A stretch of 64,000 nt of DNA from an uncultured Oscillospiraceae bacterium (GTDB taxonomy: Bacteria; Bacillota; Clostridia; Oscillospirales; Oscillospiraceae), in assembly GCA_947624985.1 (NCBI GenBank), contig CANQMO010000007.1, forward strand, positions 1-64,000, in the 5' to 3' direction. Position 1 is the stretch's first letter; each line of letters begins with the position of its first letter. The translations under genes were made by a program, and so were the position numbers. The notes below the pieces were generated by a model. It saw nothing but the letters and a program-made list of their open reading frames with translations, searched no databases and had not been told where the DNA came from. Below are positions 1-57,599 of the stretch, in pieces.

Positions 1-432
1 TTCAACCCCGTCCCCAGCATGAAGCTGGTGGAGGTCATCCGGGGCGCCAACACCACCCAGGAGACCTTTGAGTTCATCTACAAGCTGGCCCAGGACATCG
101 GCAAGGACCCCGTCGAGGTGGCCGAGGCCCCCGGTTTTGTGGTGAACAAGATCCTCATCCCCATGATCAATGAGGCCATCGGCCTGGTGGAGACCGGCGT
201 CGCCTCCGTGGAGGACATCGACAAGGCCATGCAGCTGGGCGCCAACCACCCCATGGGCCCCCTGACCCTGGGCGACTTCATCGGTCTGGACGTGTGCCTG
301 GCCATCATGGAGACCCTGTACAACGAGACCGGCGACAGCAAGTATCGTCCCGCCCTGCTCCTGAAGAAGATGGTCCGCGGCGGCCTGCTGGGCCGTAAGA
401 CCGGCAAGGGCTTCTACGATTACAGCAAATAA
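1..432 (+). CDS. hbd: 3-hydroxybutyryl-CoA dehydrogenase, 3' part
   Basis: Partial gene open at the left edge; frame 1 reads through to TAA at 430-432, giving the last 143 residues. The fragment starts in the conserved [13 protein letters not shown] segment that follows the NAD-binding domain. It contains the whole C-terminal helical domain ([15 protein letters not shown], then [15 protein letters not shown] and the terminal [11 protein letters not shown]). The enzyme reduces acetoacetyl-CoA to 3-hydroxybutyryl-CoA in the cytoplasm. The adjoining bcd-etfB-etfA genes place it in the butyrate operon. The NAD(P)-binding Rossmann domain is outside the window, so cofactor preference cannot be judged. 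Confidence 0.95.
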
Positions 433-46987: not shown

Positions 46988-47043
46988 TGGCGGAAGCGGT
47001 GGGATTCGAACCCACGAGACCTTGCGGTCTACCTGATTTCGAG
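46988..47043 (-). pseudogene. 3' half of the disrupted host tRNA-Ser (CGA)
   Basis: On the minus strand it holds part of the anticodon loop, the 3' anticodon strand TCAGG, variable arm GACC-GCAA-GGTC, T arm GTGGG-TTCGAAT-CCCAC, acceptor strand CGCTTCC and G-CCA. The missing 5' half is 9.6 kb away at 56673-56714, with matching acceptor GGAAGCG and anticodon strand CCTGA. Confidence 0.93.
47035..47043 (-). other. Left attachment core (9 bp)
   Basis: CTCGAAATC on the minus strand, spanning the anticodon; exact copy at the right border. Flanking bases differ on both sides, so the shared core is exactly nine bases. Confidence 0.85.
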
Positions 47044-47073
47044 AACGAAAATAACGAGGAAAACGCGATATAT

Positions 47074-47143
47074 CCTCATATATCTTCATATCCGCTCATG
47101 CCAAAAAGCCCGTAAAAATAAGAAAATGATGTATCTTCATATA
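47074..47143 (+). repeat. Left integrase arm-type repeats
   Basis: CTTCATATA-like motifs at 47074, 47084 and (degenerate) 47094, spaced ten bases, with a further exact copy at 47135-47143. They sit inside the left border. The rest of 47144-47293 shows nothing codable. Confidence 0.7.
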
Positions 47144-47293
47144 TCGCTATATAACTCCATATTTGGTGCTTGGGAGGGGATTTCAACAATTTCACACGAT
47201 TATAATACTTTTGCGGGATTTATTTAGAAGATATAGTCATCCATATTTATTAAAGTGCAGGATGGTGATAGCCTCTCAACATGATTTGCCTCG

Positions 47294-50200
47294 TTATAGC
47301 TGATCAATCAATTCTGTAAATGGCTTGATTGCCCAAGGACGATTATGATATATAATATCCCACATATCGAGGCATGCCCTGCGGATCTGTACATCCTCCT
47401 TTCCCTGGTGAAACAACCGGGCGATGCATATGATAAGCTCGTCAAAGTCATAGTATGTCGTTCCTGGAAGGAATAATGCTTTTACGAATTCGTGTATTAC
47501 GTCAGTATAGGCAAGAATATCCCCATCGTATTCTTTCAGATAGTTTATAAAATAATATGCCATGCGTCTCATGTTGCCACGGGTAACCAGCTTAAGCAGG
47601 AATTCTTTATCTCTTTGAGGATCGATAAGTTTCTGATAAAATAGTTGATCCAGTTGCGGCAGATCATCACATATATCTATGATATGGCTTAAAATGACTC
47701 GGCTTTGCATACGCCTGTCATCGTATTTAAAGCAGCGGACGGCTTGATGGCAAACCCCTTGTGCTTGCTTTTTGCTTAACTGCAACGAAAGTAAAATGTC
47801 GAGCATTTGACTATTTGTAGTTGCGATTATTGTCATCATCTCCAGTGCATGTTCACTCAGGTCTTTGATTTCAGAGTGGAACGCCGACAGCAATTTGTCA
47901 CAGTAGTATGATGGGTCATCGCTATAACACCGCGATAGGATCTGCCATGCGTCATAAGCACCCAAGACACGAATATCCCGTTCCAACAACCGATGGAATA
48001 GTGTCTTTGAGAATTCTCTATCAACATTGTACCATGGGGCAAGGCAACACATGGCAGAAAACAGAACGGCGGGATTTTCATCTTCAACGGCAGATGCAGT
48101 AACTCCGCGAAAAGTTTCAAACAGTTCCGGGTGTTCCCACAAAAGGTGACTGATCGCAAATAATGCATAGCCTCTTACACAGTTGATTGCGCACTGACGT
48201 AAAGTGTCACAGTCTACGGTCTCTGCATCAATTTTGTATATAGGCAACTCCTTTGGAAGCGGATCGGCATGATGTGCAGCAATATCAATTAATTCATTCA
48301 GAATGCCGATTGGCCATGCTTCCTGAGAACGGTGCTCTATAACTTGTGCATATGAGATGGCGAGGTTTCGGGATGGGTTCTGACAGAATCGCTGCAGGAT
48401 GTCACACGTTAAGTCAAGGGGGACATCTGGTGATTGAAGGCCGGTAAGTATCGCGTCAACAAAGGGCTCTGCAGTTCCATCGGGAAAGAGCAACGCTAAA
48501 TTGGCAAAGCAAATAGGATCTTTCTCTGCTGCATGGGCCAGGCTCCGGGCAAACATTTGAGGAGAAGAGTCTGTGCCAGCATTCCAATTGCGTTTTCCCA
48601 CGTTTGGGGTGGAACGACTCATATCGGAAATGAGCTTAAGCCAGTTTCTATCACTTAGACGATCGGCATGAGAATCTATCGGCGAGGAAATGCATTTGGC
48701 CATTCCATTTTGTGACAAATCATAAAGGCTTGTTCCATTAGGGAATTTTCGTGTAAGGACACAGATAAGTTCCTTTGTATAGTTGGACGTTCTGGATGGA
48801 TCTAGTGCAGGCAGTAGAATGGTCTGCAAATCGCCCCAGAAGGCAGTAGAGCCATTGTCGTTGCCAACGATATGTCCGGTTTTGATCTGCCACTGAAGTA
48901 TAGCACGCATACGATCAGCAGGAGGAGACCACTGGCATAAAAAGGTCTCTAGTTGTTTGAAGGTATCAACGCAACAATATGGGGAGAATCGTCTGATTAT
49001 ACGCTGGCAGCAAGACAGTGAAGTCGGCTCACTGCTAAATCTCTCAAAAGCTCTATTATCAAAATCAGATATAAGCCATATAATTACCTGATCAGCATAA
49101 TCTGTCGGCAAGTTTTCTGCTGCGTGGATACGGAGAGATGTCTCTATAGACGAATTAGTGCTTGGACTGTTTAGGTATTGAAGGAATTTGAGGGAGTCGT
49201 TCGATGCGACCTGAGAGAGTGCAGCCTGAACGATATGAACAAGAGCTTGTTCAATGGTGACATCATTATAATTTGTGTTCCATACTGTGCTATATTTGTT
49301 TTGTGCCGTTTCAGATATAACTGTTTGAATGAGAGGGTCAAGCAACTGGCCAACTATCTGCTCAGCATGCTTCTCTACAAAAAAGTTTGTATGCTCAAGC
49401 GTGATAAAATGCACATTGTGTCTAACAGATGGGTCCATTTCGATTATAAGCCTAAGCATAGGGACGGCCCAGGCAGGTCCTGACTCTATTATTTTTTCCA
49501 ACTCAAAATAATTAAGGAATAAAAGACGATTTTTCTCTAATAGTTTAAGTCGCAAAGCAGCGGCTTTTTCAAAATCATCAGGCGATATAGAGCAAAGGAT
49601 CGAATATAGAGTATTATCATCAAATTTATCGGGGCCATAATTATATATGATGTCCAGCGCGAGGTTCGGTTCTTGACAGATAACAGAACGAAGTATATTA
49701 CATCCAGTTTCTTCATGCCATTCATGTTCAGGATGAGATCGGCAAAATAGCTGGACAAATTCTGAGTGACTGCTGAGAACCATGTGGACAATATACTGGT
49801 TCCATTCTGGATCATCATAATACGCATCGATTGTTGGCCAAAATACTTCAGCAAGAGATGCTTTCTGACCAATAACCTCAAATATACAACATTTGAAATA
49901 GTAACGGATATTTGAAGACGCTAAACTATACTTTGCCTCGGATATAAAAGTCGCAGTATCAGCATCGACCAAATACTGTAAGAGCATCAGGAACTGATAG
50001 CGAACGTCTGGCGTCTGCCTGTCCGTATCACAGAATATATCCGGAAGATGCATAGATCTGTCATAAATGCTGTCAATATATGATTTGACGGAAAAGAAAT
50101 CGAACAGGCTTTGGTGGACAAAGGAAATGCTATTTCCGACCTTCTGTAAAACGCCATATGATGTTAGGATATCTATTTCATTATGTTCGTCTTGAAACAG

Positions 50201-51769
50201 CATGTCAGGGAGAGACAACACTTCTCGCCGCTGCATTATAGATACGATCCGATTGCGGCAGTCATCAATTCTTTGCGCGTTCAGACCATTATCAATACAA
50301 CGGTCTCTTACCTGTGTCCACCAAGTTTCCATTAACTGTCGGAGGTTTTCGATCAATGGTTTGGAACTGGGGGACAACTTTTCCCAGATGTAGAGATTGG
50401 AGGGCGTTTGAAGTAAGGCATGAAGTCTAGGGGATAGTGAATTATAGGAGTCTCCAATTAGCTTGTGAACATCATCAGACGAGAGAAGATCGACTTCGAT
50501 TTTTTCCCAGCTTGACTGGGAACCATCAGCAGACTCAAACATCCTATGTATGGTCGGGTCAGTCTGATAGTCAAATGATCGGACGACAAAAATACAACGG
50601 ATTTTTCCGTTTTCCAGGCGATTCAAATGCTCTGCCTGATCGATCATTTCTTTGCAGATGCTCAGAGATGTAGAGGTAGAACTGTTTGTCCAGTGTAAGG
50701 CATCCAATTGATCGAAGATCAAAACACATGGGCGTCCGCCTGAAAGACTATGTAGACACAGCACAGGAGAGCATAGCAGTCCAAGAGATCTCCCGTACTG
50801 ATCAGCAAATCCAGTTGGCTGACGCTTATCAAGAGGAAGGACCAAGTGGGTGGTCCCCTCGGTTTCAAGTTGTTCAATTACTTCATGGATACAGCCGCTT
50901 TTTCCTGAACCGGCTTTTCCCAGAACCAAGGCTGAATTACCGTTGTGAATACATTCCATTATTTTGTCAGCCTCGCAGCGGTGAAAGAGCGAGGACCCAA
51001 TAGGGTGAAAGCTTTCAATATACGCCTGATTGAGAGTTTTGATTTGGGTGAGAGTTCGCTCGTCGTGGACAAGAAGGCGTTGCTGGAATCCGTGCTCCTC
51101 CAGATAGGCTAATACTTCTCCGGCGTTGATTGGTCTGCCCCAGCGTTTCTCATCATTTGCGAACGCTTCTAATTCTATGCGGATGGAAGCGGGAGTTCCT
51201 GAAGTATCTTTAACGAACAAAAGCTCGATTAGCGTCTCTAATTCATGTATTCGCTCGTGATTATCAGGAATTTGATCAAAGTGACACCGTGAAAGAAGAA
51301 AAAGTGTGTGCACGTCATTTTCGCCAAAATACAGTTTACATTTGTTCCACCAATTCCTTAATTTGTCATTGGTCAACTGATTAGTTAGAAAACTGTCAAG
51401 GCCTGAAGCTGTTCGGGCCCGGTCGCATAAACTATCTAATTCATCATAGGAAAGCGGTGAAACAAAGTGATATATACAGTTGCTTCCGCTTTGAATGTGT
51501 GTTTTTGCAATTTGGAAAACAGAGTAGGCGTCCAAATCGCTGGGGCGCCAGTAATTTTCCATACCATTGGATGCTTTACATTGATAGTACTCGCGCTTAC
51601 CATTTGCAGTAGTTGTGATGAATTCTACTCCCCGGCCTTCGTCACCAAGGGGTTCTACTTCTATAGAGATAAGACGTTCCCGGATTAAATCTATCCAAAG
51701 TTTGGCTAAAAAGCGGTTCTCATATCTATTTCCACCCTTATCCGCCCGTCCGCCTGTCTCTAGACTCAT
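47294..51769 (-). CDS. Avs-like STAND NTPase with N-terminal nuclease-like domain
   Basis: 1,491 residues. Residues 1-75 look like a Cap4/DUF4297-type PD-(D/E)xK nuclease: GGRADKGGNRYENRFL, acidic residues near 37-49, and the QxK variant YYQCK at 61-65. A STAND ATPase follows: Walker A GKAGSGKS at 284-291, Walker B CVLIFDQLD at 348-356, and a winged-helix stretch with FVHQSLFDFFSVKSYI near 550. About 900 C-terminal residues are helical-repeat-like and would be the sensor. In Avs systems ligand binding triggers oligomerisation and nuclease activation; that function is inferred. Start has GAGGAAAGGG upstream. Confidence 0.75.
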   Translation of the reverse strand: MSLETGGRADKGGNRYENRFLAKLWIDLIRERLISIEVEPLGDEGRGVEFITTTANGKREYYQCKASNGMENYWRPSDLDAYSVFQIAKTHIQSGSNCIYHFVSPLSYDELDSLCDRARTASGLDSFLTNQLTNDKLRNWWNKCKLYFGENDVHTLFLLSRCHFDQIPDNHERIHELETLIELLFVKDTSGTPASIRIELEAFANDEKRWGRPINAGEVLAYLEEHGFQQRLLVHDERTLTQIKTLNQAYIESFHPIGSSLFHRCEADKIMECIHNGNSALVLGKAGSGKSGCIHEVIEQLETEGTTHLVLPLDKRQPTGFADQYGRSLGLLCSPVLCLHSLSGGRPCVLIFDQLDALHWTNSSTSTSLSICKEMIDQAEHLNRLENGKIRCIFVVRSFDYQTDPTIHRMFESADGSQSSWEKIEVDLLSSDDVHKLIGDSYNSLSPRLHALLQTPSNLYIWEKLSPSSKPLIENLRQLMETWWTQVRDRCIDNGLNAQRIDDCRNRIVSIMQRREVLSLPDMLFQDEHNEIDILTSYGVLQKVGNSISFVHQSLFDFFSVKSYIDSIYDRSMHLPDIFCDTDRQTPDVRYQFLMLLQYLVDADTATFISEAKYSLASSNIRYYFKCCIFEVIGQKASLAEVFWPTIDAYYDDPEWNQYIVHMVLSSHSEFVQLFCRSHPEHEWHEETGCNILRSVICQEPNLALDIIYNYGPDKFDDNTLYSILCSISPDDFEKAAALRLKLLEKNRLLFLNYFELEKIIESGPAWAVPMLRLIIEMDPSVRHNVHFITLEHTNFFVEKHAEQIVGQLLDPLIQTVISETAQNKYSTVWNTNYNDVTIEQALVHIVQAALSQVASNDSLKFLQYLNSPSTNSSIETSLRIHAAENLPTDYADQVIIWLISDFDNRAFERFSSEPTSLSCCQRIIRRFSPYCCVDTFKQLETFLCQWSPPADRMRAILQWQIKTGHIVGNDNGSTAFWGDLQTILLPALDPSRTSNYTKELICVLTRKFPNGTSLYDLSQNGMAKCISSPIDSHADRLSDRNWLKLISDMSRSTPNVGKRNWNAGTDSSPQMFARSLAHAAEKDPICFANLALLFPDGTAEPFVDAILTGLQSPDVPLDLTCDILQRFCQNPSRNLAISYAQVIEHRSQEAWPIGILNELIDIAAHHADPLPKELPIYKIDAETVDCDTLRQCAINCVRGYALFAISHLLWEHPELFETFRGVTASAVEDENPAVLFSAMCCLAPWYNVDREFSKTLFHRLLERDIRVLGAYDAWQILSRCYSDDPSYYCDKLLSAFHSEIKDLSEHALEMMTIIATTNSQMLDILLSLQLSKKQAQGVCHQAVRCFKYDDRRMQSRVILSHIIDICDDLPQLDQLFYQKLIDPQRDKEFLLKLVTRGNMRRMAYYFINYLKEYDGDILAYTDVIHEFVKALFLPGTTYYDFDELIICIARLFHQGKEDVQIRRACLDMWDIIYHNRPWAIKPFTELIDQL

Positions 51770-51828
51770 TTGATGTCCCTTTCCTCTACAATATGATTTA
51801 TAAATCTAGAATATAATTGGTTTGTCGG

Positions 51829-52584
51829 TCATTCTTGTGAATATGTATTTTTCAACAGGTTAAGAACCGTGTCCCTATCCATATGTATCCCCAGTTGCTT
51901 CAAATCGATTGGCTCAGTCTCCATCGCGGTTAGGAAATGCTGGAAATTCTGGTAAACGCTTTGCGGAACGGCGAGTTTTGATGTCGGCGCCAAAAGAAGC
52001 GACAGGCGAAAGACGTCATTTTTGTGCTTGCGGATATCACGGGAATCTATGGCTTCACCTGCATTCTTACGAAGAGTAAGATCAAGCCACGCCTTTGCCT
52101 TGAACAGAATAAGCTGTTCCGCGCCTACGATGGGGACACCATCCACAATGTGTTTGCCGGAGAGAAGGATCTGGTAATAGTCATCGTCCAGCAAAATGGC
52201 GGACAAACTGGACAGGTCGTCATCCAGCGGCATCGGGGTCAGGACGGCGTCCTCCGGCAGAGAAATTGCGTCTGGCTTGCGTCTGAACAGCTCGATCATA
52301 TAGGGGTACTCCCGGCTACGGGGGTGTGTAAAGCGGTAATACTGCGGCTGGCCATTGCTGCTGCGCCGATGCTTATAATCGGCGGCTTTGACGTATTGCC
52401 AGAAATGCAGTCCGAATTCCGGAGTAAGGCTCTCCACGATGAGGACCATGTCGATATCTTTGGTCGCCCGGAAATCCTCGCCTTCCTCGCTCATCAAAAG
52501 GTCGCATGCTGTTCCGCCGATGATGGCAAACTGGTCGCTGTAGTCAGCGAACCATTCTTTAAAACTCTCAAATCCGGTGACCAT
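51829..52584 (-). CDS. AbiEii-like nucleotidyltransferase toxin
   Basis: 251 residues. Nucleotidyltransferase core: IIGGTACDLL at 21-30 and the metal-binding ATKDIDMVL at 40-48, then EQLILFKAKAWLDL. This is the layout of AbiEii/MenT-type toxins, which modify tRNA or other targets by nucleotide transfer. Its start overlaps the upstream HTH gene by 17 bases. Sequence is divergent from classical AbiEii, so the name is by architecture. Confidence 0.72.
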   Translation of the reverse strand: MVTGFESFKEWFADYSDQFAIIGGTACDLLMSEEGEDFRATKDIDMVLIVESLTPEFGLHFWQYVKAADYKHRRSSNGQPQYYRFTHPRSREYPYMIELFRRKPDAISLPEDAVLTPMPLDDDLSSLSAILLDDDYYQILLSGKHIVDGVPIVGAEQLILFKAKAWLDLTLRKNAGEAIDSRDIRKHKNDVFRLSLLLAPTSKLAVPQSVYQNFQHFLTAMETEPIDLKQLGIHMDRDTVLNLLKNTYSQE

Positions 52585-53530
52585 CCCGCAACACCTCCTT
52601 GAGAAGAATATCTACAGACTGTTCTACACGCTCATCGTTTGTATCGCTCAAACTGGCAGCGAGAGAGAGGGGGTCAACGTATAGGCTTCCGCTGACCAGC
52701 CTGGGATCGTATTTCCAAAACTCGATCGCACATTGCCTTGCGGCGTCCACCAAGAGCGCACTCTTGGTCGCGAATGATTTCTCTTGCGCGACAGTTCCCC
52801 AGGTATCCACAAATGGGGGATTGATAAACGCCTGTTCGGAAAGAGCGCTCAGTCCGGCGGAAAACACATCTTTCGGAAGCTCGGTGCGGTCAATATACAT
52901 GGTCTTTCGCACCGGGGATATCAGATGGGGTAGAGCGGCCTGATATAACGCCCATGGCGTCAGATTGGAACTTAGAAGGATCTGCACTCCTTGGGTACTT
53001 CGGTTCAACAGTTTTGCTTGTATGAGCTGCTGCGCAGCGCGGGACATGGTCATCGCGGAGCAACAGAATCGTTTTGTCATGTCACTGAGAAAGATCGGCT
53101 TATTGCCGCCAAGGAAAAACGCGAAAAGCAGCATCTGTGCGGAAGGAAGCAGTTTATCTATCGGCTCTGGGGTAGCTTCAACGTCATTTCTTTCGGAGAG
53201 AACAACGCCAAGAAAAGGAAGATAGAGCTGCTTCCCGGGCACCACAAAGGGGATCCTTTCCGCGATGAGGGAACTCTTCCGCCGACGGCTGAGGTTGGGC
53301 AGCTCCAACACGACCGGCCAGGGACAGAAAGTCCCCAGCCGGGCGATGTGCTTTTTGATGGTTCCGACCGTTCCCAATTCACCGACAGGCGTCAGGAAGA
53401 GGGCGCGGCGATCCCCCAATTCCGCGTTTTCAAAAGAATAGGAATTGGTCAGGTAAAAAGGAAGTTCCGTCGCGTGCTCCCATTTGCTGCGGTGGACAGG
53501 AATGCCCAATGTCTGCGTAATATAGTCCAT
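52568..53530 (-). CDS. AbiEi-like winged-helix antitoxin/regulator
   Basis: 320 residues. A winged-helix DNA-binding segment lies around 128-180 (SAQMLLFAFFLGG then LSDMTKRFCCSAMTMSRAAQQLIQ), preceded by a 125-residue N-terminal domain and followed by an AbiEi-type C-terminal domain. It overlaps and precedes the toxin gene, and an inverted repeat flanks its promoter, consistent with autoregulation. Call rests on architecture and context. Confidence 0.68.
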   Translation of the reverse strand: MDYITQTLGIPVHRSKWEHATELPFYLTNSYSFENAELGDRRALFLTPVGELGTVGTIKKHIARLGTFCPWPVVLELPNLSRRRKSSLIAERIPFVVPGKQLYLPFLGVVLSERNDVEATPEPIDKLLPSAQMLLFAFFLGGNKPIFLSDMTKRFCCSAMTMSRAAQQLIQAKLLNRSTQGVQILLSSNLTPWALYQAALPHLISPVRKTMYIDRTELPKDVFSAGLSALSEQAFINPPFVDTWGTVAQEKSFATKSALLVDAARQCAIEFWKYDPRLVSGSLYVDPLSLAASLSDTNDERVEQSVDILLKEVLRDGHRI

Positions 53531-53542
53531 GGCAACGCCCCG

Positions 53543-53603
53543 TTTAACTTTGGTTAATAATATATTAACTTAATAGATGTTAAATGTCAATATCAAAGTT
53601 AAA
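53543..53603 (-). promoter_or_regulatory. Promoter with flanking inverted repeat for the AbiE-like pair
   Basis: Minus strand TTGACA (53585-53590), 17 bases, TAATAT (53562-53567). Outside it are TTTAACTTTG (53543-53552) and its exact complement CAAAGTTAAA (53594-53603), probable operator half-sites. Confidence 0.75.
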
Positions 53604-53636
53604 TTTGGGCATTCGCCATGTGGGAACGAATGGGCT

Positions 53637-54818
53637 TCAGCTATATACTGCCTTATGATACGCTTCCAGAACATACTGCTTTCGGGAATCCTTGAGCGTT
53701 ATATACTGGCCGATGATCTCGGGGACGCAGGCGGGGATGTCCAGTGCAACGGTGATACCTTTGAAGGAGTGGCCAAGGATAGCTCCAATGGTCAGGTAAT
53801 CGCCGGTGAGTTCATGCATGTTGGTGGCAGCAGACCGGCGCAGGTCATGAAAGCGGATCTTCCGAAACTGCAATGACTCCAGAAGCAGGGGAAAGTGCTC
53901 TGATAAGTGAGAAACGCTGTATGGCTGTCCGTCCGGCTGGGTTATAAGAAGGCCCGAGGCGCTGCTTCCGCTGCGCATTTCCACCTGCCTGACGAAGCAG
54001 GGATAGGTAAGGTCGGTGATAGGCAATGTGCGATAGGAGGTACTTGTTTTGAGTGGGGCGAGTATGCTGCCGGTACGCTTTCGCTCCGCACAGCAAGCCA
54101 ACTGCTGCGACACGGTGAAGCAATGGTTTTCCAAATCGATGTCCTGTATCTGAAGACCGTATATCTCGCCGCGGCGCAGACCGTATAGTGCAGCCAGCAT
54201 GACGATAAAATGCATCTGCGGATCGGAAACGGCGTCCAGGAGTTTCCGTACTTCGGAGATCGAGTATGGCTCGTCTGCCCTCTTCGTGATTTTGAATCTT
54301 GCAAAGCTGTTTCGCACGGGGTTCACATCGATATACCCGTGCTTTCTCGCGTGTTCCAGGGAAACGCTCAACACACGGTATGCGTGCCTTTGAGAGGAAA
54401 CGGCATAACCTTGGTGCATCATCTCCGTGCAAATCTTATCTATATCAGAGGCTGTCACCTTACGCAGTTTGATCGATCCGATGGACGGCATGATGTGTTG
54501 CCGGAAGCAGCTCAGATACCCCTGATATGTAGATGGGGCCAGGTAATTGTAGGCATATTCTGCCAGCCAGTCCTGCAAATACTCACCAAGAGTCGCGTTG
54601 TAATACTTGCGGGAGCCGCTGCGGTTCAAGGTGACGAACATCTCTGCCTCATGCTGCATGGCTAGACTTTTGGTGGCAAAGCCCCGTTTGCCATAGGTGT
54701 GCCGGTTGCCGTTGGCATCCTTGTATGAGATGAAGACGTCGTACACGGTGCCGGGCTTGTGGGTGGGGACGTGGTTTTCATCCTTTTTGTTCTTTACTTG
54801 ACGTGGTTGAATGCTCAT
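53637..54818 (-). CDS. int: Tyrosine-recombinase integrase
   Basis: 393 residues with an N-terminal arm-binding domain (VYDVFISYKDANGNRHTYGKRGF), core-binding domain (about 75-160) and catalytic domain. Active-site residues: Arg215 (GLRRGE), Lys257, His324 and Arg327 (HDLR), His350 (LGHS), Tyr372 (GQYITL). The Tyr lies further from LGHS than usual, as in a subgroup of clostridial integrases. AAGGAGGA and a TATAAT (54849-54854) lie upstream. It should catalyse integration at the tRNA-Ser core. Confidence 0.93.
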   Translation of the reverse strand: MSIQPRQVKNKKDENHVPTHKPGTVYDVFISYKDANGNRHTYGKRGFATKSLAMQHEAEMFVTLNRSGSRKYYNATLGEYLQDWLAEYAYNYLAPSTYQGYLSCFRQHIMPSIGSIKLRKVTASDIDKICTEMMHQGYAVSSQRHAYRVLSVSLEHARKHGYIDVNPVRNSFARFKITKRADEPYSISEVRKLLDAVSDPQMHFIVMLAALYGLRRGEIYGLQIQDIDLENHCFTVSQQLACCAERKRTGSILAPLKTSTSYRTLPITDLTYPCFVRQVEMRSGSSASGLLITQPDGQPYSVSHLSEHFPLLLESLQFRKIRFHDLRRSAATNMHELTGDYLTIGAILGHSFKGITVALDIPACVPEIIGQYITLKDSRKQYVLEAYHKAVYS

Positions 54819-54880
54819 GGGGACATCCTCCTTAATAAGTTTGTGTCCATTATAAGGTTTTCTGCTGTGGCCGCATAAAA

Positions 54881-54914
54881 AGAAGACCTGAAAGCGTGTG
54901 CTCTCAGGTCTTCT
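54881..54914 (-). terminator. Terminator of the 63-residue gene
   Basis: Perfect 11-bp stem (54881-54891 with 54904-54914) followed on the minus strand by a run of T. Confidence 0.8.
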
Positions 54915-54930
54915 GGGTGAATATGGATTT

Positions 54931-55122
54931 TTACTGCTGGCTAAAGCGTTGGATCATTGCGATCGCATCGGCTAGGGTGCAGGCGCTCAAAACAGCCTGT
55001 CCTTCCGATTGGACCCTCTGCCGTGTGGCCGGGCTGAGGTTATTAAGGTCATTTTGCGTTTCCTGCAGTCGATGGATAAGTTTTGTCCAGAATTCAGTGT
55101 GCTCGTTCTGTTCAGTTTTCAT
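54931..55122 (-). CDS. Small unknown protein beside the integrase
   Basis: 63 residues, soluble, Gln/Asn-rich and helical (TEFWTKLIHRLQETQNDLNNL). Weak CGAGG ribosome site before ATG, and a dedicated terminator. Size and position suit a recombination directionality factor, but no winged-helix motif is visible. Confidence 0.55.
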   Translation of the reverse strand: MKTEQNEHTEFWTKLIHRLQETQNDLNNLSPATRQRVQSEGQAVLSACTLADAIAMIQRFSQQ

Positions 55123-55213
55123 ATGAAATACCTCGAGTTATGATTTGATTCTTAATTATAATCCCCAGCAGTTATTAATACATAGATGATGTGAGTTATA
55201 CACATTTTGGCTT

Positions 55214-56341
55214 CTATTCAGTTGTCATATCTATGGAGAGATAATCTTTAATTATTTCATATATGGATAATAACTGTTCCTCAAGTTTGCTCTTGTATTC
55301 TTCGTATCCTGTATTAAATTGACTTTCAATGAGTCCACAGTAAGGAATGCCTAAATTGAGATTTGTTGGGCTGATTAAATGTTTGCCGGTACTATCCGTT
55401 AAACTAAAATGCATCATGCAGTTTCTAAAAGCCGGTTTTCTTAACCCACATTTATTTTTAAAATCAAAGCTCTTGAGAAGCTTGATTAACTTGTTATCGT
55501 TAATCTTTGCGTTGTGTTGATCGCAGTACTTGTCTAGATCATCCAAACGTAGCAGCGTGTAATGATAGGTGATATACTCAAGCCGTAACAGAAGGCCTGT
55601 ATCACGAATAATAGCCTTTTTGAGCAAAAATAAAAGTAGTCCTATACTTGAAACAACATGAAGCAGAAAAAGTCGAATTATCTTATAATTTCCGCTTTCA
55701 GATGTTGTACAGCGATTTGTATTGTAGTCTTGGCTATGTAAAGAGATCATACTTGCATCAAAATCTGCTACTATAAAATCGCTGACAGTACTAAGACCAG
55801 ATGATATGCCCCCAATAATCTCTCCCATATCATGAGCAAATGCGTATAGTTCTTCTCCTATAAGTTCAAAACTATGCATATTATTCTTGGGCTTGCTAAT
55901 ATCTCGCCCGTCTTGGAAGACATAAAATGCATAATGTGTGTTACCTATTATGTTTTTGCTATCATCATAATATATTCCAAGATTATCGTGTAAGTTAAGC
56001 GGACCAAACTCCGGAAATTTAAGTAATTGTGAAAAATGCTCATCTTGAATGTAATCAATATTGTCTACACACTGGAATAGCTTGTTTAGACGAAAGTTAA
56101 AGAATTTTGCTTTCTGACGAATATCTTTGATAGAATATCTACTAGATTGATTAATTTCAATAGGATGGCCTTTTTTGTTAAAATACTCAATTGCTTCATA
56201 GCAAAACAGGGCAACGAATGGCGTAAATTGAGTTATAACAACTGGAGGTAGTTGTACTACCACTTTCTTCAATAGGTCGCAATCTCTCTTGATTATCAAT
56301 AATTCTGCAACCTGTAGAGCAGAAGACATTGCTTCGTCCAT
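55214..56341 (-). CDS. Unknown protein with a HEPN-type RNxxxH motif
   Basis: 375 residues, very AT-rich. Starts with GGAG ten bases before ATG. No signal peptide; one hydrophobic helix (residues 222-241, LFLLHVVSSIGLLLFLLKKA). Near the C-terminus FRNCMMHFSL gives Arg306-Asn307-x3-His311, the HEPN ribonuclease motif (R-x4-H), and the regions around it are helical. That suggests an RNA-targeting effector, but the fold is not proven. It has its own promoter. Confidence 0.55.
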   Translation of the reverse strand: MDEAMSSALQVAELLIIKRDCDLLKKVVVQLPPVVITQFTPFVALFCYEAIEYFNKKGHPIEINQSSRYSIKDIRQKAKFFNFRLNKLFQCVDNIDYIQDEHFSQLLKFPEFGPLNLHDNLGIYYDDSKNIIGNTHYAFYVFQDGRDISKPKNNMHSFELIGEELYAFAHDMGEIIGGISSGLSTVSDFIVADFDASMISLHSQDYNTNRCTTSESGNYKIIRLFLLHVVSSIGLLLFLLKKAIIRDTGLLLRLEYITYHYTLLRLDDLDKYCDQHNAKINDNKLIKLLKSFDFKNKCGLRKPAFRNCMMHFSLTDSTGKHLISPTNLNLGIPYCGLIESQFNTGYEEYKSKLEEQLLSIYEIIKDYLSIDMTTE

Positions 56342-56374
56342 AATGATCTATCTCCATTGCACCTTGTTTTTAGT

Positions 56375-56403
56375 ATTATATCACAAAAGACTGTAAACCG
56401 CAA
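56375..56403 (-). promoter_or_regulatory. Promoter of the HEPN-motif gene
   Basis: Minus strand TTGCGG (56398-56403), 17 bases, TATAAT (56375-56380). Confidence 0.65.
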
Positions 56404-56445
56404 AAAAGACAAACCCATTTCAAATTGAGTTCAGAAATGGGTTTG
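56402..56445 (-). terminator. Terminator of the cargo tRNA-Ser
   Basis: Perfect 12-bp stem (56410-56421 with 56434-56445) followed on the minus strand by six T. Confidence 0.85.
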
Positions 56446-56452
56446 CCCTAAT

Positions 56453-56543
56453 TGGCGGAGCGGGTGGGATTCGAACCCACGTGCCGTTTCACCGGCAACT
56501 CGATTTCGAGTCGAGCTCGTTGTGTCCACTTCGATACCGCTCC
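56453..56543 (-). tRNA. tRNA-Ser (CGA), island-borne complete copy
   Basis: 91 bases including CCA. Acceptor GGAGCGG/CCGCTCC, anticodon stem CTCGA/TCGAG around loop CTCGAAA (anticodon CGA), long variable arm, T arm GTGGG-TTCGAAT-CCCAC. It differs from the host tRNA in acceptor, anticodon stem and variable arm, so it is not a simple duplication. Confidence 0.95.
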
Positions 56544-56620
56544 ATGTATATTCAAACCGGTGTGACCGGCTCAAACATTGCTATTTTGTTGTGCTGTTGT
56601 GGAAGCAGATCGCCGAAAAC

Positions 56621-56669
56621 CCGATATAACTTCATATAAGCTCATATAGCTTCATATAGGCTGATGGGT
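56621..56669 (+). repeat. Right integrase arm-type repeats
   Basis: CTTCATATA at 56630 and 56650, GCTCATATA at 56640 and degenerate GCTGATG at 56660: a ten-base-period array mirroring the left border. Confidence 0.72.
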
Positions 56670-56672
56670 TTA

Positions 56673-56681
56673 GATTTCGAG
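56673..56681 (-). other. Right attachment core (9 bp)
   Basis: CTCGAAATC on the minus strand, identical to the left core. Confidence 0.85.
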
Positions 56682-56714
56682 TCAGGCCCGTTATGACCAC
56701 TTCGATACGCTTCC
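56673..56714 (-). pseudogene. 5' half of the disrupted host tRNA-Ser (CGA)
   Basis: Minus strand: acceptor strand GGAAGCG, D arm region, anticodon strand CCTGA and the anticodon loop up to the core. Joined to the 3' half at 46988 it gives an 89-base tRNA with perfect acceptor and anticodon stems. Confidence 0.93.
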
Positions 56715-56726
56715 GGATGCGGGCTT

Positions 56727-56755
56727 ACTATACCATGCAAAGGGCTCAATGTCAA
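56727..56755 (-). promoter_or_regulatory. Host tRNA-Ser promoter, intact
   Basis: Minus strand TTGACA (56750-56755), 17 bases, TATAGT (56727-56732), 12 bases before the tRNA 5' end. It now reads through the 5' half into the island's complete tRNA-Ser. Confidence 0.85.
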
Positions 56756-56767
56756 CGCCAAAGCGGC

Positions 56768-56796
56768 TTTACAACCGCCGCCGGATGGCCTATAAT
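56768..56796 (+). promoter_or_regulatory. Promoter of the TIGR04255-MFS pair
   Basis: TTTACA (56768-56773), 17 bases, TATAAT (56791-56796). Confidence 0.7.
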
Positions 56797-56828
56797 AAGG
56801 AAAACAGCGGGAAAGGCGGGCCGGATCT

Positions 56829-57599
56829 ATGGGCCGATATGCGAAAGATTTTATAACCCAGGTGGTGCTGCGGGCGGACTTCGTCACCGGTACGGCGCCC
56901 ATCACGGGGCAGCTGCCGGAGGGGCTGCTGGCCCCGCTGGAGAATTACCCGGTGCGGAACGTTCTCAACCGCTCCCGGACCGAGGTGCGGGTGCAGAAAA
57001 CGCCCCAGGGCCCTGTCCGGGACACACGGACCATCAACTTCCCGGAACACAACTTCTGGACCGCCGACCGCGATCTGCATGCCGCCGTGTGCAGCGAGTA
57101 CACCTTCATCGCCCAGCGCCAGTACGGGGGCTACGCCCCGCTGCGGGAGGGGTTCCTGGAACTGGCCGAGGCCGTGTCCGCGCAATTTCCGGGGCTGCGT
57201 ATCAAGCGATTGGGAATGCGTTATGTAAATGAAATAAAATTGCCGGAGGCCGACGCGGGACCGGGTCTGGGCGCGGACTTTTGGGAACATTATGTTAACC
57301 CGCTTTTGCTGGGCGGTCTCCGCTTCGCCGCCAACGACGGGGCGATGGCCCGGCACATGTGCACCACGGAGCTCAATTATGGCACGGACCGGGCCACCAT
57401 CCGCTACGGTATCTTCAACGGGGAGTATCCCCGGCCCAACCGGCGGCGGGAATTCGTTCTGGATGTGGACACATACTGTCAGACGGAGATGGGGCCGGAG
57501 AGCCTGGCCGCCAGGCTGGACGATTACCATGCCGCGGCCTGCCAGGTGTTCGAGGCGGCGGTGACGGACGCGCTCCGGGCGCGGATGATGATGCCGTGA
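56829..57599 (+). CDS. TIGR04255-family protein
   Basis: 256 residues. Family features: opening DFITQVVLRADF, the central GLRIKRLGMRYVNEIKLPEAD and the C-terminal half ending near YHAAACQVFEAAVTDALRARM. Function of the family is unknown; many members are near mobile elements. Weak ribosome site before ATG. Coupled by a GTGA overlap to the MFS gene. Confidence 0.78.
   Translation: MGRYAKDFITQVVLRADFVTGTAPITGQLPEGLLAPLENYPVRNVLNRSRTEVRVQKTPQGPVRDTRTINFPEHNFWTADRDLHAAVCSEYTFIAQRQYGGYAPLREGFLELAEAVSAQFPGLRIKRLGMRYVNEIKLPEADAGPGLGADFWEHYVNPLLLGGLRFAANDGAMARHMCTTELNYGTDRATIRYGIFNGEYPRPNRRREFVLDVDTYCQTEMGPESLAARLDDYHAAACQVFEAAVTDALRARMMMP

Follow-up and report, generated by a model that had tools for sequence, protein, structure and literature searches.

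Integration at tRNA Genes

Integration of mobile elements into tRNA genes is generally described as restoring the target gene. For the tRNA-restoring genomic islands treated by Islander, the target is described as rebuilt from an attP fragment (PMC4383910). A different route, tRNA-dependent lysogeny, has been described for actinobacteriophages (Guerrero-Bustamante and Hatfull, 2024; PMC10865867). There, a tyrosine integrase acts at an attB within a host tRNA gene (tRNA-Lys, tRNA-Ile2, or tRNA-Leu), a common core of only 8-17 bp leaves that gene unrestored, and the phage itself brings a tRNA of the kind that was lost; related integrases also occur in the restoring form. The same text cites the Lactobacillus johnsonii prophage Lj965 as leaving its tRNA unrebuilt and encoding the cognate tRNA. 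In two Sinorhizobium meliloti strains, a further report describes prophages that break tRNA-Leu centrally and carry a functionally similar tRNA, and that resemble Mesorhizobium phage vB_MloP_Lo5R7ANS (PMC11476347).

The island described here likewise drops restoration. According to the original prediction, leaving both halves of a tRNA gene dead while carrying a different complete one was a distinct strategy. That claim does not hold, since the actinobacteriophage work of 2024 had already set out the principle, citing an earlier prophage, and the two Sinorhizobium prophages show it as well.

A Split tRNA-Ser(CGA) Gene and Its Carried Replacement

The window is the whole stretch of 64,000 nucleotides that was analyzed, from an uncultured Oscillospiraceae gut bacterium. 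At the island borders, a single tRNA-Ser(CGA) gene lies on the minus strand in two pieces, 56714-56673 and 47034-46988, split in the anticodon loop as had been proposed. The dead 5′ half (56673..56714, minus strand; 42 bases, GGAAGCG...CCTGA-CTCGAAATC) ends in the anticodon loop and equals bases 1-42 of the uninterrupted gene of relatives. The dead 3′ half (46988..47034, minus strand; 47 bases, AGG...CGCTTCCGCCA), assigned from sequence and relatives, is preceded by a second CTCGAAATC copy at 47043-47035. Joined at CTCGAAATC, the halves form 89 bases whose stems pair at 12/12 positions, 7 in the acceptor stem and 5 in the anticodon stem (row G000 of the stem comparison below). The predicted 9-bp core, the 7-base anticodon loop plus TC (CTCGAAA + TC), is present at both borders on the minus strand, the left copy at 56673..56681 being read from sequence and the right copy at 47035..47043 from sequence and relatives, and a third copy lies within the carried tRNA. 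Repeats resembling TATATGAAG, spaced at 10 bp, occur just inside both island ends, three of them at 56624..56663 (minus strand) and others at 47067..47162 (strand not given); they are what integrase arm sites would look like and are treated as putative arm sites. The island has a G+C content of 44.7%, against 63.6% for the rest of the window.

Along the minus strand, a promoter-like site is followed by the dead 5′ half, a 129-bp leader, the carried tRNA, a hairpin, five main genes, and the dead 3′ half. The carried tRNA-Ser(CGA) (56453..56543, minus strand) was identified by ARAGORN as complete with an encoded CCA; the 129-bp leader separates it from the dead 5′ half upstream, and it has the CGA anticodon of the broken gene. 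Directly after it, a predicted 16-bp hairpin with a 12-base loop and a T-run (56406..56449, minus strand; fold z -6.6) is a likely intrinsic terminator, unlisted by the terminator scan, whose loop limit was 8.

An ordinary tRNA-restoring island with an incidental extra tRNA would agree with how tRNA-targeting islands are described (PMC4383910), and one locus elsewhere in the family (L022, the same as L134) does have an intact tRNA at its native promoter. For the window this model was rejected: both junctions lack a complete tRNA, the sole tRNA-Ser found by ARAGORN in the window is the carried one, and a hybrid of the dead 5′ half and the carried 3′ half pairs at only 4/7 acceptor and 4/5 anticodon-stem positions, so that restoration by the carried 3′ half is not possible. 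In L022, the intact tRNA is followed by the downstream sequence found after the carried tRNA in L135, which appears best explained as a later collapse between two identical copies (the 5′ halves). A crossover through the core inside the carried tRNA was discarded, as the right end of L022 lacks the leader and 5′ half remnant expected from it. A restoring island is thus hardly credible here.

Genes of the Island

All five main genes lie on the minus strand. Profile searches found no family for a 375-aa protein (55214..56341). The next gene encodes a tyrosine integrase of 393 aa (53637..54818; PF00589, 2.5e-15, with arm-binding and SAM-like domains), whose C-terminal residues, a tyrosine among them, are common to its relatives. 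The enzyme appears intact, and a suspected loss of the catalytic tyrosine was discounted in view of the tyrosine at one place common to relatives. Two overlapping genes (51829-53530) encode a 320-aa protein with a weak MarR-like match (52568..53530; E 0.0053, below cut-off), a possible partner of the following product, and a 251-aa protein with a weak AbiEii-like nucleotidyltransferase match (51829..52584; PF08843, E 0.0065, below cut-off). By these matches the two could possibly be a toxin-antitoxin pair on a tRNA-carrying island. The product of the fifth gene (47294..51769) has 1491 aa; it partially matches PDC-M54A, a candidate defence family (E 2.3e-18 over 269-567), and weakly matches a P-loop NTPase. 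The description of the locus as a defence island thus has weak support, consisting of the partial PDC-M54A match and the sub-threshold AbiEii match.

Among the five main genes, only the integrase matches PHROGs at E 0.01, which suggests that the island is not a temperate phage. Integrase searches by tblastn returned 750 phage and 131 plasmid records, all below 60% identity (best phage 40.8%, MT836268); a phage or plasmid home for the element was set aside, with no phage or plasmid record reaching 60%. Viral contigs yielded one integrase relative, and a scan of these contigs for the core and tRNA pattern found none.

Serine tRNAs of the Host and the Role of the Carried Copy

As the original prediction proposed, the genome was scanned for other CGA-reading serine tRNAs, and none was found in the 87.6%-complete assembly, which gave 35 tRNA matches; ARAGORN assigned an anticodon to 33, and two 66-base matches on contig C40 were uncalled. 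The remaining serine tRNAs are GGA, TGA, and two GCT. tRNA-Ser(TGA) may read UCG by wobble; therefore the CGA tRNA may not be essential, and its loss may be costly rather than lethal. The expectation that the island would be hard to lose stands in part. Precise excision by the integrase should be harmless, as it would rebuild the host tRNA from two halves that the window keeps intact, whereas other deletions of the carried tRNA would remove the only CGA tRNA found. An excised circular form was not observed. Where a dead half has decayed or the integrase is broken, as in G413 below, the island is probably locked in.

The carried tRNA might serve the codon usage of the island or counter tRNA-cutting defences rather than repair the insertion. 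Phage tRNAs have been proposed to counter such defences (discussed in PMC10865867). However, TCG codons are used about equally in the island (5.3 per 1000, five genes) and the host (4.5 per 1000, six genes), on which ground a codon-usage reason was rejected, and the anticodon of the carried tRNA is that of the broken gene, with a placement just behind a dead half that recurs in other genomes. Such a role in place of insertion repair is improbable.

Empty Sites, Shared Islands, and Decay in the Genus

The rejoined 89-mer is present uninterrupted and 100% identical in 14/35 genomes of the genus (own genome included), thus the joined sequence is not a chance product. As the proposed check of relatives anticipated, G419 (L082/L141) has the uninterrupted 89-base tRNA-Ser and no island, and its neighbors on the two sides are the genes that border the island in the window; of the 14, it is the one whose retrieved pieces cover both flanking genes. 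In G216 and G418 a related element lies beside the uninterrupted 89-mer, and an additional 3′ half occurs at another place in G424.

In four further genomes (G413, G412, G410, and G417), a dead 5′ half identical to that of the window (42/42) stands ahead of an identical carried tRNA (91/91), making an assembly error very unlikely. The carried tRNA is thus identical in five genomes, window included. Its nearest match outside the island is 91% identical (G165, from another genus), a value that does not appear to pin down the donor. The G417 island shares about 91% identity with that of the window over 8.2 kb, against 79% for the sole aligned host flank (about 180 bp), which suggests horizontal movement. 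G413 is 91% identical over the flank and left end; its integrase is internally deleted, and 4 of the 47 bases in its dead 3′ half differ, 3 within the T loop, whereas its carried tRNA shows no change. By this pattern of loss, the G413 island is probably locked in. The empty sites, the conserved carried copy, and the decaying 3′ half in G413 bear out the original view that both halves are dead and that a different complete tRNA-Ser(CGA) replaces them.

Two variants were also observed. At the right end in G417 (L012/L128), the 3′ half has a TGCGG anticodon stem; its acceptor strand fits the dead 5′ half, its anticodon stem does not, and the dead half has no recognizable promoter upstream. The mismatched 3′ half is perhaps the remnant of an older chain. 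In G409 (L129, 4806-6548), a 1.7-kb insert consists of a dead half, a replacement tRNA, and the other half, with no integrase match, and could be a minimal or decayed element.

Recurrence across the Family

Beyond the original prediction, the layout recurs in other genomes, forms chains, and has a carried tRNA that is apparently promoterless. Relatives of the integrase, mostly at about 40% identity, were found at 19 loci in one search and in 14/400 family genomes, own genome included, in another; 10 of the 19 loci have a complete tRNA-Ser(CGA). Locus L015 combines a dead half, a replacement, an integrase, and the other half in a single 7.8-kb unit, and the acceptor of its dead half differs from that of the replacement.

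An integrase-independent search was made for the core followed by tRNA-Ser(CGA) at a set spacing, with the reversed pattern as control. The short spacing (about 78 bp) was found at 18 places in 17/400 sampled family genomes (about 4%) and the long spacing (about 171-200 bp) at 27 places in 24/300 (8%), the window being one of the latter; the reversed control gave 0 in both cases. A stricter script recognized both a dead 5′ half and a complete tRNA in 12/18 short-spaced and 20/27 long-spaced places; the remaining 6/18 and 7/27, in which it did not recognize one or the other, count against the pattern.

At 14/27 long-spaced loci, the carried tRNA has an integrase of a second group no more than 250 bp away and pointing toward it. 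These integrases are 46-70% like that of L017 (one 31%) and 25-29% like that of the window. One of the other long-spaced loci has an integrase of the first group, and 12 have no integrase in the short pieces examined. As the window combines long spacing with the first integrase group, spacing and integrase group do not correspond one-to-one. The first group has a longer stretch from the LGH motif to the shared tyrosine (LGHxLKGIG...TARYV) than the second (LGHSDFSTTANIYAHLDY).

The same layout was also seen with tRNA-Ser(GGA): in L117 (8462-8554), a broken GGA 5′ half is followed by a complete tRNA-Ser(GGA), and in its relatives L118, L119, and L029 a promoter-like site precedes an intact tRNA-Ser(GGA) gene. 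In addition, a second core-like motif (CGAAATC) is found near the core, both in the leaders of L183, L184, and L192, where it follows a palindrome-like stretch, and at the right ends of L022 and L026.

Dead Halves Matched to Separate 3′ Halves

Dead halves were compared with separate 3′ halves in 17 genomes, 13 from 30 that were scanned and 4 from earlier loci (G000, G463, G409, and G417). The other 17/30 scanned genomes were not used, either because a separate 3′ half could not be distinguished from a complete tRNA, because the dead half went unrecognized, or for want of any match (in G209, for example, the second match is a complete tRNA, and in G254 and G153 nothing matched). The stems match at 12/12 Watson-Crick positions in 10 of the 17, whereas shuffling the 3′ halves among genomes gave a mean of 1.47 full matches, and 0/20,000 shuffles reached 10. 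When ten of the separate 3′ halves, on far contigs or at far positions, were re-read with their flanks, none had a 5′ half in front. Where the carried and dead stems differ (13 genomes), the dead half fits the 3′ half better in 10 and pairs no better than the carried one in 3, which counts against the match. Among the misfits, the 3′ half of G355 does not fit, that of G417 (of another kind) reaches 10/12, and G160 and G361 tie; in G216 and G196, the carried and broken stems are identical.

Matched halves can be far apart, as in G132, where they are separated by 66 kb. G160 has two 3′ halves, at distances of about 64 and 125 kb, and the sequences preceding them are nearly identical, as expected if two tandem elements had left them; the outer one fits the dead half. 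Three successive dead halves precede an intact tRNA in L180 and L143, and two do so in L018/L186, L144, L183, L189, L201, L203, L210, and L211, of which L018 comes from the strain Pseudoflavonifractor phocaeensis An858. For the inner dead half of G154, a fitting 3′ half lies 27 kb downstream. Taken with the chains, this match indicates that replacement tRNAs are themselves targeted.

Duplication of one tRNA followed by decay, with no element inserted, would also leave dead and carried copies close together in the same direction. It is nevertheless very improbable: the dead halves stop at the core, a separate 3′ half matches fully in 10/17 genomes, integrases lie beside the carried tRNA in about half of the long-spaced loci, and empty sites exist. 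For the window, duplication is contradicted.

Promoters of Native, Dead, and Carried tRNAs

Upstream of the dead half in the window lies a strong promoter-like site, taken to be the host tRNA promoter (TTGACA-17-TATAGT, 56727..56755, minus strand), with 11/12 consensus matches and a TG before the -10 element. On the minus strand from 56300 to 56900 it is the only promoter match, and terminator matches number 0. Across loci, consensus sigma-70 promoters were scored as TTGACA-16..19-TATAAT over the 85 bases upstream with a threshold of 10/12; leaders more than 80% alike were merged, loci near a contig end were skipped, and the native set included L227 and the restored L022. The threshold was reached by 26/32 native tRNA-Ser(CGA) genes and by 0/29 carried tRNAs (12 short-spaced and 17 long-spaced), as well as by 17/33 outermost and 0/12 inner dead halves. 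Sequences upstream of carried tRNAs score no better than shuffled sequence, in agreement with a previous run on sets that differed slightly. The simplest reading of these scores is that the carried tRNA would run from a captured host promoter.

Alternatively, the replacement may be the same with the carried tRNA transcribed from a non-consensus promoter in its own leader, like the tRNA of mycobacteriophage Fionnbharth, for which a strong upstream promoter was shown (PMC10865867). Type-A elements have a conserved, AAAACTGAATAttttTACAC-like leader that could be such a promoter. Moreover, 16/33 outermost dead halves (e.g., L015, L018, and L012) score below 10 and have no recognizable host promoter either, which counts against promoter capture, though some of them may sit inside older elements. 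Against an own promoter stand the gap between carried and native tRNAs in promoter score, the shortness of the type-A leader, in which about 36 bp follow the core in most cases, and the lack of a minus-strand promoter match between the dead half and the carried tRNA in the window. Transcription from the leader is therefore rather unlikely, while keeping an appreciable share of the probability.

Proposed Mechanism

We infer the action of the integrase, read-through transcription, and the fitness reason for a carried tRNA as follows. A tyrosine integrase would recombine a 7-9 bp core that is the anticodon loop of tRNA-Ser(CGA), and integration would cut the host gene in the loop without restoring it. 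The element would supply a complete tRNA-Ser(CGA), predicted to lack a promoter, together with a strong terminator-like hairpin. The host tRNA promoter would read through the dead 5′ half into the carried tRNA, which processing would then free. With the same loop, the carried tRNA would offer a new target, and later elements would add dead halves in front. This proposal as a whole, comprising a splitting element, a promoterless replacement tRNA, read-through from the host promoter, and repeated re-targeting, is considered likely.

In a classic anticodon-loop insertion, the 3′ half brought by the element must fit the 5′ half of the host, a requirement that a whole tRNA would lift. Since stems matching the host would be unneeded, a 9-bp match should suffice across diverse tRNA-Ser genes. 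A more general reading, favored with less assurance, is that Oscillospiraceae harbor a class of elements with at least two integrase groups in which a promoterless "core - leader - tRNA-Ser" cassette acts as a promoter trap and stacking acts as a ratchet. The cassette would be expressed only after splitting a tRNA gene and taking its promoter, and a single old promoter would serve the most recent tRNA across successive dead halves. Decay of the outermost halves would then make the host tRNA permanently that of a mobile element. If so, tRNA genes would be replaced by foreign versions via mobile elements, a core tRNA could come to depend on such an element, and island finders that seek a rebuilt tRNA would miss islands of this kind.

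Comparison with Known Systems

Replacement of a tRNA after non-restoring integration is known from some phages. What appears new, from the sequences compared here, are non-phage islands in Bacillota, predicted promoter capture, and serial chains; neither promoterless replacement tRNAs, nor dead-half chains, nor non-phage islands of this kind turned up in a literature search that covered few subscription papers.

As in the Islander islands, the integrase is of the tyrosine type and the crossover lies in the anticodon loop, one of the known sub-sites (PMC4383910). Unlike the islands described there, the window island does not rebuild its target tRNA. The Sinorhizobium meliloti prophages share the broken tRNA and its replacement; however, they are prophages of Alphaproteobacteria, and the available part of the report does not describe chains or promoter capture (PMC11476347). 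Lj965, as cited in PMC10865867, is a non-rebuilding element of Bacillota with a cognate tRNA, but is a prophage. A close parallel is tRNA-dependent lysogeny, with which the island shares a tyrosine-family integrase, a short core within a host tRNA gene that is not rebuilt, and a carried tRNA with the anticodon of the broken gene. Whereas the actinobacteriophages are temperate phages of Actinobacteria, the elements here are non-phage islands of Oscillospiraceae that target tRNA-Ser(CGA). In contrast to the Fionnbharth tRNA, which has a strong promoter of its own (PMC10865867), the island tRNA lies beside the attachment junction, is predicted to be promoterless, and belongs to a layout that forms chains of dead halves.
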